A DNA stretch of 20,939 nucleotides from a virus. Made by a program: the position numbers and the translations under genes. Below the pieces are notes generated by a model that was not told the origin of the DNA, did no database searches, and was given only the letters and a program-made list of their open reading frames with translations. Shown one piece after another: positions 6,043 through 16,440 of the stretch (positions within the stretch are counted from its first letter, which is position 1; each line of letters opens with the position of its first letter). The stretch covers positions 1-20,939 of IMG/VR virus record IMGVR_UViG_3300031236_000052; one strand, given 5' to 3'.

Positions 6043-8415
6043 GTGGACACATTAAATTCTACTCCTTTTGTAAAGATAGAAGATCTTCCGGATGGCTCTA
6101 GTGTCTATGAAATGGGCGATGATCAGGATGAGAATGTACTTTATCCAAATTTTGGAAAGGTGAATTTTGGAGAGAATCTAGCTGAAACACTTAATCCTTC
6201 TGAACTAGAGCGAATAGGATCGCAACTACTAGAGGATATAGTCCAGGACAAAGAATCTAGAGTTGAATGGGAACAGGCTTATCTTAAGGGTATTAAATAT
6301 TTAGGATTTAAATTAGAAGAATTCAAAGATGTTCCGTTTATTTCTGCTTGTCGTGCTGTTGATACGACTCTTTCTACCTCTCTTATTCGTTTTTATGCAA
6401 CTGCGCGCGCAGAATTATTTCCGCAAAAAGGACCTGTCGAATGTGAATTATTAGGATATCCAAATCCAGAGTTGGAACAACAATCGGATCGTATTAAGAG
6501 TTGGATGAATTATTATCTAACTGAAGAAGACAAAGAATATTATTCAGACTCTGAGAGACTATTGATTTATTTGGGTATAGTTGGATGTGCATTTAGAAAA
6601 GTATACGTTGATCCCATTACTCAAAAACCAGTTGCTAGATTTATTGATCCTCAAGATTTCATTGTAAATAATAGTTGTGTTAGCATTTTAAGCTCTAGTC
6701 GTTTAACTCATGTTCTGTCGTTGACGAAGAAAGATATTAAGATGCGTCAAATGACGGGTTTTTATAGAGAGATGTCTCTGGAAGGTCTTAATGACGAAGA
6801 TGAAGACGAAAATCTTCAAACGACTAAAACAATCAAGAAATTAGAAGGTATTCAAACAGGAAGTTATGAAAAACAATCTATTTTCAAGATATTTGAAGTT
6901 CATACAGATCTTGTTATAGAAGATAGAAGTAAAAAAATGGAGGAAGAGCAATTGCCTCTTCCATATATAGTATCAATTTGTGAATCTACAAGAAAAATAT
7001 TATCAATTAGAAGAAACTGGGAAGAAGGAGACTCTTTATTTAAAAGAAAGAATTATTTCATACAATATAATTACTTACCAGGATTTGGATTGTATGGATT
7101 AGGATTATCGCATCTTCTTGGGAGCAATGCAGTTGCTTTAACGAGTGTTTTGAGACAATTAATTGATGCTGGAACCTTGAAGAACTTTCCTGGTGGTTTA
7201 AAGGTAAAGGGCCTTCGAACTGAGTTCAATGACAAACCCATAGGACCAGGTGAGTTCTGGGATATTGAGACAGGTGGGTTGCCGATTCAGCAAGCAATTA
7301 TGCCAATGCCTTATGGAGAGCCGTCTCAGGTTTTAAATGAACTCAGAAAAGAATTAATACAACAAACACAGAATCTAGCATTGACTGCAGATACTCAACT
7401 CGCAGAAGACAAACAAAATGCAGCAGTTGGAACAACGTTAGCTTTATTAGAGGTTGCAAATTTAGTTCAATCTTCCATTTTAAGATCACTTCACATCTCA
7501 TTAAGTCGAGAATTTGGATTACTTTATGAATTGTTTGCACAAAGCTTTCCAGAGAATCCTGTATCGTTTCCGATTAAAGGACAGATTAATTCTGTTACAC
7601 GACAAGATTTTACTCCTAATATTCGTATTATTCCTGTTTCAGATCCTTCTATTAATACTTCTTCTCATAGATTAATCAAGGCATCTTCTTTAATTCAAAT
7701 AGCTGAAAAGGCTCCTCAACTCTATGACATGAGACAAGTTCATTTGCGTGCATGTGAAGCAATGAAGATGGAGAATATAGAACAGATTTTACCGCCTCCT
7801 CAAGAATCGCCAACAGTTGATCCGATTCATGAAGTTATGAATGCAATGCAAGGAAAGGCGTCAAAGGCAGCTATCTGGCAGGACCATCCGTCTCACATTA
7901 CGGTTCTCTCTGGTGCTGATCCTCAAGGACAGAATCCTCTTATTCAGTCGTTAATCCATGAACATCAAGCGATGCAATATTATGTTGAAATGCAAATGCA
8001 TATGGGCATCCAGTTGCCTCCTTTAGATCAGATGCAAGATCCAAATATCCAGAATGAAGTGGCTTTAAGAGCTGCAATGGCAACACAACAGCAACAACAA
8101 CTTCAGCAACAACAGTTAGAGCAGATGGCGGCTCAACAGAATCCACAACCTCAAATCGATCAATCAACTCTCATGTTGGCGGACATTCAGCAGCAACAAG
8201 AGATTGCAAAGACCAAAGCTGAAACAGACTTGATGAAAGAAAAGATGAAGCTAGAGTTGGATAAGTATAAAACTGATATTCAAAAGTTAATAGCGGATGA
8301 AAAGAATGAAACAGACATAGCAATTCAAAATATGAAAATAGAACTAGATCTGATTAAGCACTCACATGAAGTTGACAAACAAAATATGTTTCAAAATTCA
8401 CCAGCGGAGATTTAA
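6043..8415 (+). CDS. Portal protein (P22-like)
   Basis: This 790-aa protein should form the dodecameric ring at one capsid vertex through which DNA enters and leaves. Residues about 45-560 show the pattern of P22-type portals: MNYYLTEEDKEYYSDSERLL, a segment IVGCAFRKVYVDPITQKP and PQDFIVNN, a wing with YEKQSIFKIFEVH, then LYGLGLSHLLGSNA and an LRKELIQQTQNLA helix region. From about residue 680 there is a Gln-rich stretch (several Gln runs) and a long charged coiled coil (KTKAETDLMKEKMKLELDKY and following), comparable to the barrel or crown extension of large portals. The start is taken as GTG 6043 because an in-frame TGA lies at 6031-6033; AGTGAT at 6029-6034 is a weak ribosome binding site. 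Large size is usual for podovirus portals. Confidence 0.9.
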   Translation: MDTLNSTPFVKIEDLPDGSSVYEMGDDQDENVLYPNFGKVNFGENLAETLNPSELERIGSQLLEDIVQDKESRVEWEQAYLKGIKYLGFKLEEFKDVPFISACRAVDTTLSTSLIRFYATARAELFPQKGPVECELLGYPNPELEQQSDRIKSWMNYYLTEEDKEYYSDSERLLIYLGIVGCAFRKVYVDPITQKPVARFIDPQDFIVNNSCVSILSSSRLTHVLSLTKKDIKMRQMTGFYREMSLEGLNDEDEDENLQTTKTIKKLEGIQTGSYEKQSIFKIFEVHTDLVIEDRSKKMEEEQLPLPYIVSICESTRKILSIRRNWEEGDSLFKRKNYFIQYNYLPGFGLYGLGLSHLLGSNAVALTSVLRQLIDAGTLKNFPGGLKVKGLRTEFNDKPIGPGEFWDIETGGLPIQQAIMPMPYGEPSQVLNELRKELIQQTQNLALTADTQLAEDKQNAAVGTTLALLEVANLVQSSILRSLHISLSREFGLLYELFAQSFPENPVSFPIKGQINSVTRQDFTPNIRIIPVSDPSINTSSHRLIKASSLIQIAEKAPQLYDMRQVHLRACEAMKMENIEQILPPPQESPTVDPIHEVMNAMQGKASKAAIWQDHPSHITVLSGADPQGQNPLIQSLIHEHQAMQYYVEMQMHMGIQLPPLDQMQDPNIQNEVALRAAMATQQQQQLQQQQLEQMAAQQNPQPQIDQSTLMLADIQQQQEIAKTKAETDLMKEKMKLELDKYKTDIQKLIADEKNETDIAIQNMKIELDLIKHSHEVDKQNMFQNSPAEI

Positions 8416-12443: not shown

Positions 12444-13556
12444 ATGTCTACTTATACAAATATTTTTGGTGGGAATCAAGTTAGTCCAGCATTTAGTTCT
12501 TATGCTAACATAACATTGTCTGCAAATTTACAGTTGCAATGGCCAACTTCATTTCAGGATACGGCGAATGTTGTGGCTAGTATTATGGATGTAACGCCAA
12601 CTGGAGCTGGATTGACTCTTACATTGCCGGCAGTTGCAACTAACCCAAGTCCTCCTGCTGCTCCTGCTGGAATTGTTTCTGTTGGCACCAATTTTATTAT
12701 TAATAATCTAGCAACTGCTTATAGTCTCCAACTTAATACAGCTGATAATGCTCCTCTGCTCACAATTGTTCCTGGAACTGCGTATTATATTTATCTTAGT
12801 GATAATACAACGGTTGCTGGAACTTGGAGGAAATTACCTATAGCTTTGGGAGCTTCTGGTCCTATCACTAGTTTAACTATGACAGGAGATCCGAGTGGAT
12901 CACTAACCATTACACCTGCTTCTATTACTTCTAGTGGGGGATTTTCGTTTATGTTATCTCCGAATCTGGATGCAGTTTCTGGGTTAGCAACTTCAGGGCT
13001 TGTGGCATACAATAGCGGAACTAAGACATTTTCGGCCGTCACTCTTATTAATGGGGGTAATATTTCCATTACAAATCCTCAGGGGATTTCCGGAAATCCA
13101 ACCATTGGCTTGATAAATCCTTTCGTATCACCTGTTACGATCGGCAATATTGTGTTGTCTGGCCACACCATAACAACGACTCCGGCCCACACCAATCTGA
13201 ATGTAGGCGATGGTTCTCAACAAGTTATCTTTTCTGCTAATTCAATCGATTCTCCTCAAGTTTTAATAGCGGCAGGGAATGTTAGTTCAAGTGGTGCTCC
13301 TAATTATCTAACTTCTAATGTGAGTGGAATAGTTAAACCAGCTATGACGACAGGAACGTATTTAATTAATTATACCAGCTTAACAGGAACAGCGGATGTG
13401 ATAGTGGGATCATGTGCTCCTGTTGGTGGAACCATCTACTCATTTAATCCTGTTACAACATCGGCAATTTATCCTCAAGCAACTGTCTATACCTACAATA
13501 TGAGTGTTAGTCCACCTGTTTTGGCTGATGCAGCTTTTACTTTTATGATTTGTTAA
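12444..13556 (+). CDS. Beta-rich virion or fibre protein (370 aa)
   Basis: The N-terminal domain (about 1-135; YTNIFGGNQVSPAFSSYANI, then LQWP, ITN-like strands and DNTTVAGTWRKLP) follows a pattern common at the N-terminus of phage virion and fibre proteins. The rest is rich in Gly, Ser, Thr, Asn and Ile with repeated beta-strand phrases (ITSLTMTGDPSGSLTI, GLVAYNSGTKTFSAV), typical of trimeric fibres, and ends in a possible head-binding or tip domain with two late Cys (CAPVGGTIYSF and the final C). No signal peptide. It is probably a head fibre or decoration protein because it lies ahead of the capsid gene. Its stop overlaps that of the convergent KGG gene by 4 bp. Confidence 0.7.
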   Translation: MSTYTNIFGGNQVSPAFSSYANITLSANLQLQWPTSFQDTANVVASIMDVTPTGAGLTLTLPAVATNPSPPAAPAGIVSVGTNFIINNLATAYSLQLNTADNAPLLTIVPGTAYYIYLSDNTTVAGTWRKLPIALGASGPITSLTMTGDPSGSLTITPASITSSGGFSFMLSPNLDAVSGLATSGLVAYNSGTKTFSAVTLINGGNISITNPQGISGNPTIGLINPFVSPVTIGNIVLSGHTITTTPAHTNLNVGDGSQQVIFSANSIDSPQVLIAAGNVSSSGAPNYLTSNVSGIVKPAMTTGTYLINYTSLTGTADVIVGSCAPVGGTIYSFNPVTTSAIYPQATVYTYNMSVSPPVLADAAFTFMIC

Positions 13557-13900
13557 TTATTCTTTACGCAATTGAGCAGTTTTACTGGCTCCTCCTTTTT
13601 TTTTCCCATCGCTACATATCCTTCATGTCCTAATTGAGCAGCTTTAGCGGCTCCTCCTTTTCTTCCTATGGCTACATATCCTTCATGTCCTAATTGAGCA
13701 GCTCTAGCGGCTCCTCCTTTTCTTCCTATGGCTACATATCCTTCGCGTCCTAATTGGGCGACTCTACTTGCTCCTCCTTTTTTCCCTAATTCCTTAACTC
13801 TTTCAGGCGACATCGCCGCAAATCCACGCTTCTGCTTTAGTACAGCCTGGTTGGGAGCCTCTGCATCCATTGAAACTTCGTTTTCTGTCTTTATTGTCAT
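13553..13900 (-). CDS. KGG-repeat stress-type protein, last repeat frameshifted (115 aa)
   Basis: Residues 25-100 carry 20-residue repeats with the KGG signature of bacterial GsiB/Con-10-like stress proteins: KGG at 41-43, 61-63 and 81-83, each followed by ASRVAQLG-like or AARAAQLG-like and then GYVAIGR. Such proteins are hydrophilic, probably disordered, and linked to desiccation or general stress in bacteria. At the fourth repeat the frame shifts in a run of nine A (T 13596-13604 on +), giving KKKEEPVKLLNCVKNN instead of a fourth KGG. Two fewer A, or one more, would restore KGGASKTAQLRKE and a stop at 13557-13559. The gene opposes its neighbours and has its own AAGGA site and likely promoter, like a phage moron. 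Confidence 0.82.
   Translation of the reverse strand: MTIKTENEVSMDAEAPNQAVLKQKRGFAAMSPERVKELGKKGGASRVAQLGREGYVAIGRKGGAARAAQLGHEGYVAIGRKGGAAKAAQLGHEGYVAMGKKKEEPVKLLNCVKNN
13569..13790. repeat. About 3.7 tandem 60-bp repeats inside the KGG gene
   Basis: Units beginning CAATTGAGCAG or TAATTGAGCAG (13569, 13631, 13691, 13751) recur every 60 bp, with the copies at 13631 and 13691 nearly identical. The first unit is 62 bp because of the long T run at 13596-13604, which is the cause of the frameshift. Confidence 0.85.
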
Positions 13901-13946: not shown

Positions 13947-14067
13947 GTGTTTGTGCCTATTAGAAAGTTTAATTTTTCCCAAGTTTTCCCACGCATAAGC
14001 GAATTCATTCATTTTTTTATTGATAAATTTTATTGTCTTTTTTTGATTAATGTTGTTTAATATTAAC

Positions 14068-14193
14068 TAATGTCGGGCGAGACATTAAATCGCTGGCTCA
14101 GATTTTAATCTGAGTGAGAGTCATACTCATAATATGACACGTCGAGCGAGACGGTCTTAAATCGCGAGGGGAGTTCAGCTCTCCGGTTCGCGG
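14068..14193 (+). ncRNA. Structured RNA leader with two pseudoknot-like units
   Basis: Within the gene-free stretch 13901-14270 the + strand folds into a chain of hairpins. They are TAATGTC/GACATTA (14068-14074/14081-14087), CTCAGATT/AATCTGAG (14097-14104/14107-14114), GTCATA/TATGAC (14120-14125/14133-14138), CGTC/GACG extended by GAC/GTC (14136-14156), and a long arm CGCGA-GGGGAG/CTCTCC-TCGCG (14163-14192). The first and fourth share loops GGGCGA and GAGCGA and are each followed by TTAAATCGC, whose TCGC can pair with the loop GCGA to form an H-type pseudoknot. It lies upstream of the capsid-region genes, so it may control their expression or be a small RNA. I recognise no known class. Confidence 0.6.
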
Positions 14194-14226
14194 TATATCC
14201 ATAAAATATCGAATATTAACATTGTG

Positions 14227-14249
14227 TTGGCTTTGCCAATTAATTTTTT
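14227..14249 (+). promoter_or_regulatory. Small hairpin with T run before the decoration gene
   Basis: TTGGC (14227-14231) pairs with GCCAA (14235-14239) around a TTT loop and is followed by TTAATTTTTT (14240-14249). It looks like a weak terminator placed inside the leader, about 20 nt before ATG 14271, so an attenuator is conceivable. The remaining part of the spacer, 13961-14067, is A+T-rich with nothing else I can support. Confidence 0.35.
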
Positions 14250-14270
14250 ATTATTTTATGGAGATATTCT

Positions 14271-15527
14271 ATGTCTTATGGCACGAATGCGTCCCAAGGA
14301 TTACAACCCGTCAGACGAATTGATGGGACCTTATGGAATGGCGCAACTAATGATTATCCTATTCCTAGTGGATATGCAACTTCTCTGTTTAATGGAGATC
14401 CGTTAACTTTTGTTGGAAATGGGAATGTTGGACTTGCTTATAGTCCGCCCAACACAAGCGTTAATCCTCCAATCGCGGCTTCGTGGCTTCCAATTATGGG
14501 TGTTTTTCAAGGAGTTAAGTATTATGATGTGAATAATAATTATGTCACAGCGGATATGTGGAAAGCTGGAACTGTAACCGTTAATGGTGGACCAGCTTTT
14601 GTAAGTGTTTGTGATGATCCTTGGGTTTTATTTAATATTCAGGTTTCGAATTATAATGCACTTACTTCTGGTGTTCGTCTTACAGATTTGTTTTTTAACT
14701 ATAATGTTAGCGTGGGCGGAAGCGGAGTTTCTCCTGGTTTAAATCCATCTCCCCCAACAAATCCTCCTGCGGGTGATGCTTTTTCACAGAAATCAGGTTT
14801 TTATTTAGATTATTCTACCTCAACAACTTCTTCAGCTTCTGTATTTAAGGTTATTTCCTTAACTCCACAACCTGGAAATATGTTTGCGGTAGCAGAACCT
14901 GCTATTAATGGAACATTGGTTGGGCCTGGTGCTTATAATAATGTACTGGTACTTGCAAACAATCATCTTCTAAAGAATGCAAGTCCAGGACAAGGTAATT
15001 TTAGTGGTCCTTTAACTGGTTCATTTACCGTAGCTGGAGTGGGGTCTCCGCCATTAACACCGGCGGTTCCTTTTCCTGTAAACAATACTGCGTTTCCCGT
15101 TGCTGGGCCCACCTCTGGTTTTATTCCTGTTCAGCTTGTTCTTCCTGAAGCTCCTAGTGTTGGATCTGGCATTGTTTTGGATCCTGTAATTGCGGGACTA
15201 ATAGATATTCCTTATTCAGGATCTTATTTAGTTAATGCAACTGCACAGATTGAAAATACGACTGGAGGACCTACCCAATTCTTTATGTATGCTGTTGTTT
15301 ATAATCCAACTACAAATGCATACGTTGGTTCTACTTTAATGGATTTCTCCATTACTGGAGGAACAGGAGACAACATGCAGGGAGCTGTAGTAGTTCCTCT
15401 TCTATCAGCGGCCAAAATAGGAATTGTGATTTGTACTAATAATGGTGGAACTGGGCAATTTCAAGAATTCAATTCAGTGACTGGTTCTTATGTGACTTTT
15501 GTTCAAGTTTCCAGAATCGCTTATTAA
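14271..15527 (+). CDS. Probable capsid decoration protein with C-terminal C1q-like domain (418 aa)
   Basis: Residues 1-238 follow a pattern known from structural proteins encoded just before podovirus major capsid genes: LQPVRRIDGTLWNGATNDYP, a GYATSLFNGDPL segment, then FQGVKYYDVNNN and later NMFAVAEPAI. A Gly/Pro-rich linker follows. Residues about 285-418 form a separate beta domain with IDIPYSGSYLVNATAQIENT, a central QFFMYAVVYN strand and a final SVTGSYVTFVQVSRI strand, resembling the C1q/TNF-like jelly roll often used for receptor contact. GGAG at 14260-14263 is the ribosome binding site. The likely location is the capsid surface, next to the capsid protein encoded 13 bp downstream. The domain names are by pattern. 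Confidence 0.72.
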   Translation: MSYGTNASQGLQPVRRIDGTLWNGATNDYPIPSGYATSLFNGDPLTFVGNGNVGLAYSPPNTSVNPPIAASWLPIMGVFQGVKYYDVNNNYVTADMWKAGTVTVNGGPAFVSVCDDPWVLFNIQVSNYNALTSGVRLTDLFFNYNVSVGGSGVSPGLNPSPPTNPPAGDAFSQKSGFYLDYSTSTTSSASVFKVISLTPQPGNMFAVAEPAINGTLVGPGAYNNVLVLANNHLLKNASPGQGNFSGPLTGSFTVAGVGSPPLTPAVPFPVNNTAFPVAGPTSGFIPVQLVLPEAPSVGSGIVLDPVIAGLIDIPYSGSYLVNATAQIENTTGGPTQFFMYAVVYNPTTNAYVGSTLMDFSITGGTGDNMQGAVVVPLLSAAKIGIVICTNNGGTGQFQEFNSVTGSYVTFVQVSRIAY

Positions 15528-15540
15528 GGAGTAATAAATA

Positions 15541-16440
15541 ATGGCAATTAATACTGGCGAAATAGCGAATCTATTAAGACCTGGACTCGCTGCCGTTTTT
15601 GGGGACTATCCAATGTACCCCGCACAATGGTCTGAATTTTATGAAGTATACGAATCCGATAAGGCTGTTGAAATCGAAGTCGAAATGAAGATGTTGGGGC
15701 TTGCTCAAATTCGAGCTGAAGGCGCTGCAACTGCTATGGACGATATGGGTCAAAGAATTATCACAAACTATGTGCATAAGTACTTGGCTCTTGGTTTCAT
15801 TATCACAAGACAGGCTTTGTTGGATAACCTTTATAAAACAAGGTTTCCACTTCAAGCAAAGGCACTTCGAAATTCTATGGCTCAAACCAAAGAAGTTCTT
15901 GGAGCTGCTGTTTTGAATAATGGATTCAATGGGGCATTCCCGATTGGTGACGGGCAGCCCGTTTTCAGCACTTTGCACCCAATTGATACTGGAGTTTTGA
16001 GCAATACATCTGTAGCTGCTCAATTGAGTGAAACCTCACTCGAGACTGCGATTACACAGACTCAACAATTCCGAAATCAAGCTGGATTGATCGTTATGAC
16101 GAAACCTCAGAAATTGATTGTGCCTCCACAACTTCAATTTACTGCTTGTCGTTTGCTTGAATCTTCTTTCAGAACTCAAACAGCTGATAACGATATAAGC
16201 GCGATCTACAATCTGTCTGCAGTCCCTCAAGGGTATAGAACCAATCAATTTTTGACGAGTCCGACCGCATGGTTCTTGTTCACTGATGCACCTGACGGTT
16301 TCAAGCATTATGTTCGTGAAAAAATCGAAACTGATGTCTATACCGATTTTGCAACAGACAACCTTATGGCGAAAGCAGTTGAGCGGTATTCCTTCGGTGT
16401 CTCTAACCCAAGAGCCGCTTACGGAAACATGGGAGCTTAA
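15541..16440 (+). CDS. Major capsid protein
   Basis: The product is the 299-aa shell protein, of HK97-like fold by family. Features seen: an N-terminal arm (GEIANLLRPGLAAVFGDYPM), a long helix region with MDDMGQRIITNYVHKYLALG, then RQALLDNLYKTRF, the segment GQPVFSTLHPIDTG, a central TKPQKLIVPPQLQFTACRLL block and DAPDGFKHYVREKIETDVY with the C-terminal ERYSFGVSNPRAAYGN. This series is typical of Mu-type or podovirus major head subunits. The AAGGAG-type ribosome binding site just upstream is strong, fitting high expression. No protease gene is seen nearby, and the protein does not need an obvious delta domain. Confidence 0.9.
   Translation: MAINTGEIANLLRPGLAAVFGDYPMYPAQWSEFYEVYESDKAVEIEVEMKMLGLAQIRAEGAATAMDDMGQRIITNYVHKYLALGFIITRQALLDNLYKTRFPLQAKALRNSMAQTKEVLGAAVLNNGFNGAFPIGDGQPVFSTLHPIDTGVLSNTSVAAQLSETSLETAITQTQQFRNQAGLIVMTKPQKLIVPPQLQFTACRLLESSFRTQTADNDISAIYNLSAVPQGYRTNQFLTSPTAWFLFTDAPDGFKHYVREKIETDVYTDFATDNLMAKAVERYSFGVSNPRAAYGNMGA

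Follow-up and report, generated by a model that had tools for sequence, protein, structure and literature searches.

The head-operon leader of an uncultured tailed phage is filled by two tandem RNA modules, each a predicted H-type pseudoknot (14070-14093 and 14139-14165) with a hairpin after it; the module recurs, at the corresponding position, in about 22 related but distinct phages, likewise uncultured. We analyzed a 20,939-nucleotide stretch of DNA (here called the window), a virus record whose terminase, portal, and capsid PHROG assignments mark it as a fragment of such a phage; a search for DNA similarity to named phages found none, and no relative turned up in the genome collection. At the level of sequence, the analysis establishes two modules, compensatory pairing in relatives, strand specificity, placement ahead of the head operon, and, across the set of leaders, promoter-like sites nearby. 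We consider it very likely that the element is a functional structured leader RNA, and probable that it acts post-transcriptionally. Its role would most likely be that of a translational operator or a stabilizing leader for the head genes, acting after transcription. As the best explanation of the whole we propose, at a probability of roughly one half, a cis-acting RNA of two tandem modules with which the head-operon mRNA begins and which works post-transcriptionally, most likely as a protein operator. The relevant features of the window are as follows.

14033-14061, + strand: weak sigma-70-like promoter (TTGTCT-17-TTTAAT) shortly before unit 1
14070-14093, + strand: H-type pseudoknot of unit 1 (S1, 14070-14074/14081-14085; S2, 14077-14080/14090-14093)
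14097-14114, + strand: 3' hairpin of unit 1, CTCAGA-TTTTAA-TCTGAG
14120-14138, + strand: spacer hairpin between the units, GTCATA...TATGAC
14139-14165, + strand: H-type pseudoknot of unit 2 (S1, CGTC/GACG, 14140-14143/14150-14153; S2, 14146-14149/14162-14165)
14168-14184, + strand: 3' hairpin of unit 2, GGGGAG-TTCAG-CTCTCC
14226-14240, + strand: candidate terminator-like hairpin and run of Ts, in the leader beyond unit 2
14260-14263, + strand: Shine-Dalgarno-like sequence GGAG of the first head-operon gene
14271-15527, + strand: first head-operon gene (418 aa), immediately preceding the major capsid protein gene
15541-16440, + strand: major capsid protein (MCP), PHROG 371

The N-terminal part of the 418-aa protein is conserved in relatives, and we regard its gene, judging by position, as decoration-like. 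Just ahead of the leader, on the opposite strand, lies a short protein with KGG-like repeats (13553-13900, - strand).

The initial annotation had described a duplicated pseudoknot motif in this capsid leader, with a GCGA loop that pairs with a TCGC tail and with hairpin stems that differ in sequence yet still pair. The duplication is real and recurs in relatives, and both kinds of pairing are present in both units, which read ATGTC-GG-GCGA-GACAT-TAAA-TCGC (unit 1) and CGTC-GA-GCGA-GACG-GTCTTAAA-TCGC (unit 2, 14140-14165); the distance between them, given there as 72 nt, is 69 nt from start to start. Outer pairs lengthen S1 of unit 1 to TAATGTC/GACATTA (14068-14087). Because a 7-bp S1 leaves only AA (2 nt) to cross, the knotted form must open these outer pairs, and it probably has a 4-bp S1 with the loop TTAAA, which is geometrically sensible. 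Other pairings are available to the leader: an alternative pseudoknot involving GTGAG/CTCAT is possible at the spacer hairpin (14120-14138), and in unit 2 a longer pairing of 14161-14167 with the downstream TTCGCG competes with S2. The RNA from 14050 to 14270 folds with a z score of -5.5, and the strongest pseudoknot-plus-hairpin of the leader beats 99.3% of shuffles. The paired 12-mer/9-mer pattern had no match in 40 dinucleotide shuffles of the window, compared with 71 real matches, counted irrespective of where they lie. A leader-peptide reading, in which an ATG at 14070 opens a 12-codon open reading frame through unit 1, was dropped when inspection by eye found no such frame recurring in relatives.

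The initial annotation had made its reading depend on homologues outside this phage, and these were found among MCP relatives gathered from IMG/VR and from one DNA pattern scan. Our counts cover 34 units from 22 distinct leaders, window included; leader L204 and the second units of L192, L197, and L238 were added by reading and stand outside the counts. The shared plan is a stem of 3 to 6 bp, 1 to 2 nt, a second stem of 4 to 5 bp, an A-rich loop, and a 3' hairpin, the last following almost every unit in relatives. Often there are two copies, 63 to 84 nt apart, while some leaders have a single module, and in three members of the clade (L123, L149, and L239) no clear module was found. The letters vary widely, as units from L130 (AAGAC-g-GACC-tga-GTCTT-caaac-GGTC), L151 (AGGC-g-GACAG-a-GCCT-..-CTGTC), L152 (AAAGT-g-TACCG-t-ACTTT-tcaatt-CGGTA), L133 (AAGTT-c-TACG-AACTT-..-CGTA), and L125 (ACGAG-tg-AGCC-aaat-CTCGT-..-GGCT) illustrate. 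Two further elements were observed beside the modules. In L046 the two modules come right after a third, stronger pseudoknot-like element (7208-7239; GCTGGA t AGCAATT TCCAGC ctact AATTGCT), and an extra hairpin like TCTG[AG]GCCATAAATCAGA recurs in the leaders of L130, L148, L196, L202, L192, and L242.

The case for a structured RNA rests chiefly on compensatory change. Every one of the nine pairs in S1 and S2 shows changes at both partners among the 34 units; 94.4% of S1/S2 cells are paired, compared with 62.1% after shuffling, and the covariation score is 0.859, compared with 0.213. Sliding the alignment by one to three columns lowers covariation to 0.1 or less. The 3' hairpin has a double-change score of 0.533 (0.08 when shuffled). 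S1, S2, and the 3' hairpin all covary between phages, a mark of the RNA family proposed here. Within a single phage, L148, S2 switches as a pair between GACC/GGTC and TACC/GGTA. For these counts we used N-padded rows, as MAFFT misaligned the raw units. Since units were picked partly for pairing, the covariation counts lean toward structure, a bias that the held-out, anchor, and slide tests answer in part. The less circular tests were held-out leaders, an anchor pattern run over the whole collection, and a descriptor run over the rest of the loci. Six of the 12 held-out leaders, by our count the new distinct leaders without type-B hairpins, reached P ≤ 0.02. The anchor pattern, which fixes S2 and part of L3 and leaves S1 free, hit 10 sites across IMG/VR; three had a pairing S1, all of them in head-operon leaders, and the other seven had none. 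The descriptor gave 15 matches in 11 leaders, where its rate over the remainder of these loci predicts 0.47. A first descriptor, run on distant relatives, had flagged CCTTG/CAAGG "pseudoknots" in pelagiphage-like contigs; these fall within the coding region upstream and were discarded. Both stems show compensatory changes across about 22 related, distinct phages, and the idea of a functional pseudoknotted RNA has gained support.

These data leave very little room for a repeat that serves at the DNA level, as an operator or promoter repeat, or that arose by chance. The 12- and 9-mers repeated in one leader would suit such a repeat, but the letters differ between phages while the pairing is kept, and descriptor matches in the clade leaders are strand asymmetric (22 forward versus 8 reverse, by our count). 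G-U pairs are tolerated as well; their presence in S2 of L046 and L196 points to RNA rather than DNA.

S2 is partly conserved (GACC in many units), a G recurs in L1, and L3 is A-rich; no nucleotide column is invariant in the 34 units, and we conclude that there is no strictly conserved binding pocket. This bears on a small-molecule riboswitch with tandem aptamers. Tandem, pseudoknotted aptamers with A-rich loops do occur among riboswitches, and the general likeness speaks for one here, but besides the lack of an invariant column, head genes are not metabolic and Rfam returned no match; we think a riboswitch highly improbable. In Rfam 15, no family other than tRNAs reached the gathering threshold in the window or its relatives, in keeping with the initial annotation, which had recognized no known class, and we found no earlier description of the module in the open-access literature or Rfam. 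(A second tRNA-like Rfam match in the window, at 884-1005, scored 41 bits, was unusually long, and was not called by ARAGORN.)

The fold is narrowly distributed. In the MCP tree, a single clade (support, 98/94) contains the pseudoknot leaders, which make up 23 of its 26 rows, and the phages around it have another type of tandem hairpin or no such element. R1, a covariance model for GACC-class units, was run on 19 contigs; its confident matches all lay in head leaders, and it found no confident second locus in these contigs, many of them fragments. Built from six GACC/TACC-type units, it is too narrow and misses the window's own units as well as divergent ones. In the first IMG/VR pattern search, exact paired copies occurred only in contigs of the same virus, with single matches elsewhere, and the relatives from the phage collection (L153 to L161; phages of Planktothrix, Alcaligenes, Caulobacter, Roseobacter, and others) had no such leader. 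Within the patterns and contigs searched, the module is restricted to leaders of the operon made up of the 418-aa-gene homologue and MCP.

Other hairpins occupy similar positions outside the pseudoknot clade. In L132, L138, L139, L210, L215, L217, L222, L225, L228, L233, and L235, the leader of the gene before MCP has one to three hairpins whose loop is almost always UCACGU(A/U)U, in many cases with CGA ahead of it; their stems differ but pair, and they sit where the pseudoknot modules do. The neighboring clade has a different tandem hairpin element (conserved loop UCACGUAU) at the same place; should the modules be operators, it would look as if the operator had been swapped. Pelagiphage-like L075, L085, L092, L095, and L097 have a hairpin about 10 to 60 nt before the gene upstream of MCP, again pairing through stems of unlike sequence (GTGAC/GTCAC, GAAC/GTTC, and GTAC/GTAC), which enclose a repeated TGGAG/AG internal loop.

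The modules lie close to a predicted transcription start. The window promoter is weak by consensus (P = 0.54 alone); sigma-70-like promoters over 22 leaders combined give a Fisher P of 1e-5, individual leaders varying, and the median gap from promoter-like site to unit 1 is 28 nt in the leader set. A structured two-module RNA so near a promoter, with a terminator-like hairpin (14226-14240) after unit 2 in the window leader, could suggest processive antitermination of the HK022 put type, in which the nascent RNA would bind RNA polymerase and late-operon terminators would be ignored. The put RNA of HK022 (putL/putR) has two structured parts and a length of about 70 nt, and putL sits right behind its promoter (PMC9378689); structured RNA downstream of a promoter is common to both systems (here by the combined P of 1e-5, the window's own site being weak). 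Compared by description, put belongs to early operons and combines a triplex with two stem-loops, and the text searched mentions no pseudoknot (PMC9378689), whereas here there are pseudoknots in a head operon. Terminator-like sites in the head-leader region are no commoner than in shuffles (2 found versus 3.2 expected), none stood out by reading in the other leaders inspected, and the contigs searched hold no second copy of the module at another promoter. Antitermination would also not need a kept distance to the start codon, and we judge it improbable.

Such a distance recurs in ten relatives. The last module ends 32 to 37 nt before the ATG in eight leaders, and L197 and L238 also fit by reading; it is not kept in L151, L133, and others, nor in the window, where the gap is 86 nt. 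This spacing, a correlation, suggests action at the translation start region. Together with the 3' hairpin of each module and the promoter proximity, the distance repeated in many relatives goes beyond the initial annotation.

As a constitutive 5' stabilizer and translation enhancer, the modules would do no more than block 5'-end-dependent decay and hold the ribosome site accessible, and capsid mRNA would be plentiful with no regulator involved. The phage needs much capsid protein, the predicted transcript has the modules close to its 5' end, the gap between the last module and the ATG is A/U-rich, and the stem letters drift freely while the shape is kept, all as such a leader would have it. 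It would have no need, however, of two copies, of a partly conserved S2, an L1 G, and an A-rich L3, or of the repeated 32- to 37-nt distance, and we hold it to be rather unlikely. Because of the two copies, the recurrent letters in S2, L1, and L3, and the spacing, we slightly prefer a protein-bound operator to a passive stabilizer, although a protein-bound translational operator taken specifically falls somewhat short of even odds. In this operator model, the two tandem modules, located where the head-operon mRNA starts, would act in cis both on the region in which translation of the first head gene begins and on the mRNA of that gene; they may be bound by an RNA-binding protein, from phage or host, that controls how much head protein is made, and two modules could allow cooperative or dimeric binding beside the 30S footprint. 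The model for this is the T4 gene 32 pseudoknot, which nucleates repressor upstream of its ribosome site. More tentatively still, the operator might be autogenous, an undescribed RNA family of tandem pseudoknot-hairpin modules that matches head-protein synthesis to assembly in a DNA phage.

Little is known of the RNA-level control by which tailed DNA phages adjust when, and in what quantity, head proteins are made. That related phages keep the fold with other letters suggests that the control RNAs for shell building include an undescribed family, and a family of covarying pseudoknots linked to a single capsid operon, which Rfam lacks, offers a defined RNA for experiments.

Among known phage leaders, that of T7 gene 10, a capsid gene, carries a 5' hairpin processed by RNase III. 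A structured 5' leader on a capsid mRNA is common to both, but the T7 element is a simple hairpin made by cleavage, with neither a pseudoknot nor tandem modules. In T4, T2, and RB69, the gene 32 leader pseudoknot is an autogenous translational operator, and in 2010 a review considered the T4-type element possibly the only viral pseudoknot in translational autoregulation (PMC3014915). The leaders described here differ in having two modules with extra 3' hairpins, and the genes downstream, as tested, are the 418-aa gene and MCP rather than a single-strand-binding protein gene. What the two systems share is an H-type pseudoknot located in the leader of a phage mRNA, some tens of nucleotides before the start codon, recognized here by sequence and covariation, and an A/U-rich stretch that follows the pseudoknot and reaches the ribosome site (PMC3014915). 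By this analogy, the T4 gene 32 leader pseudoknot would be the closest functional parallel to the head-operon modules.
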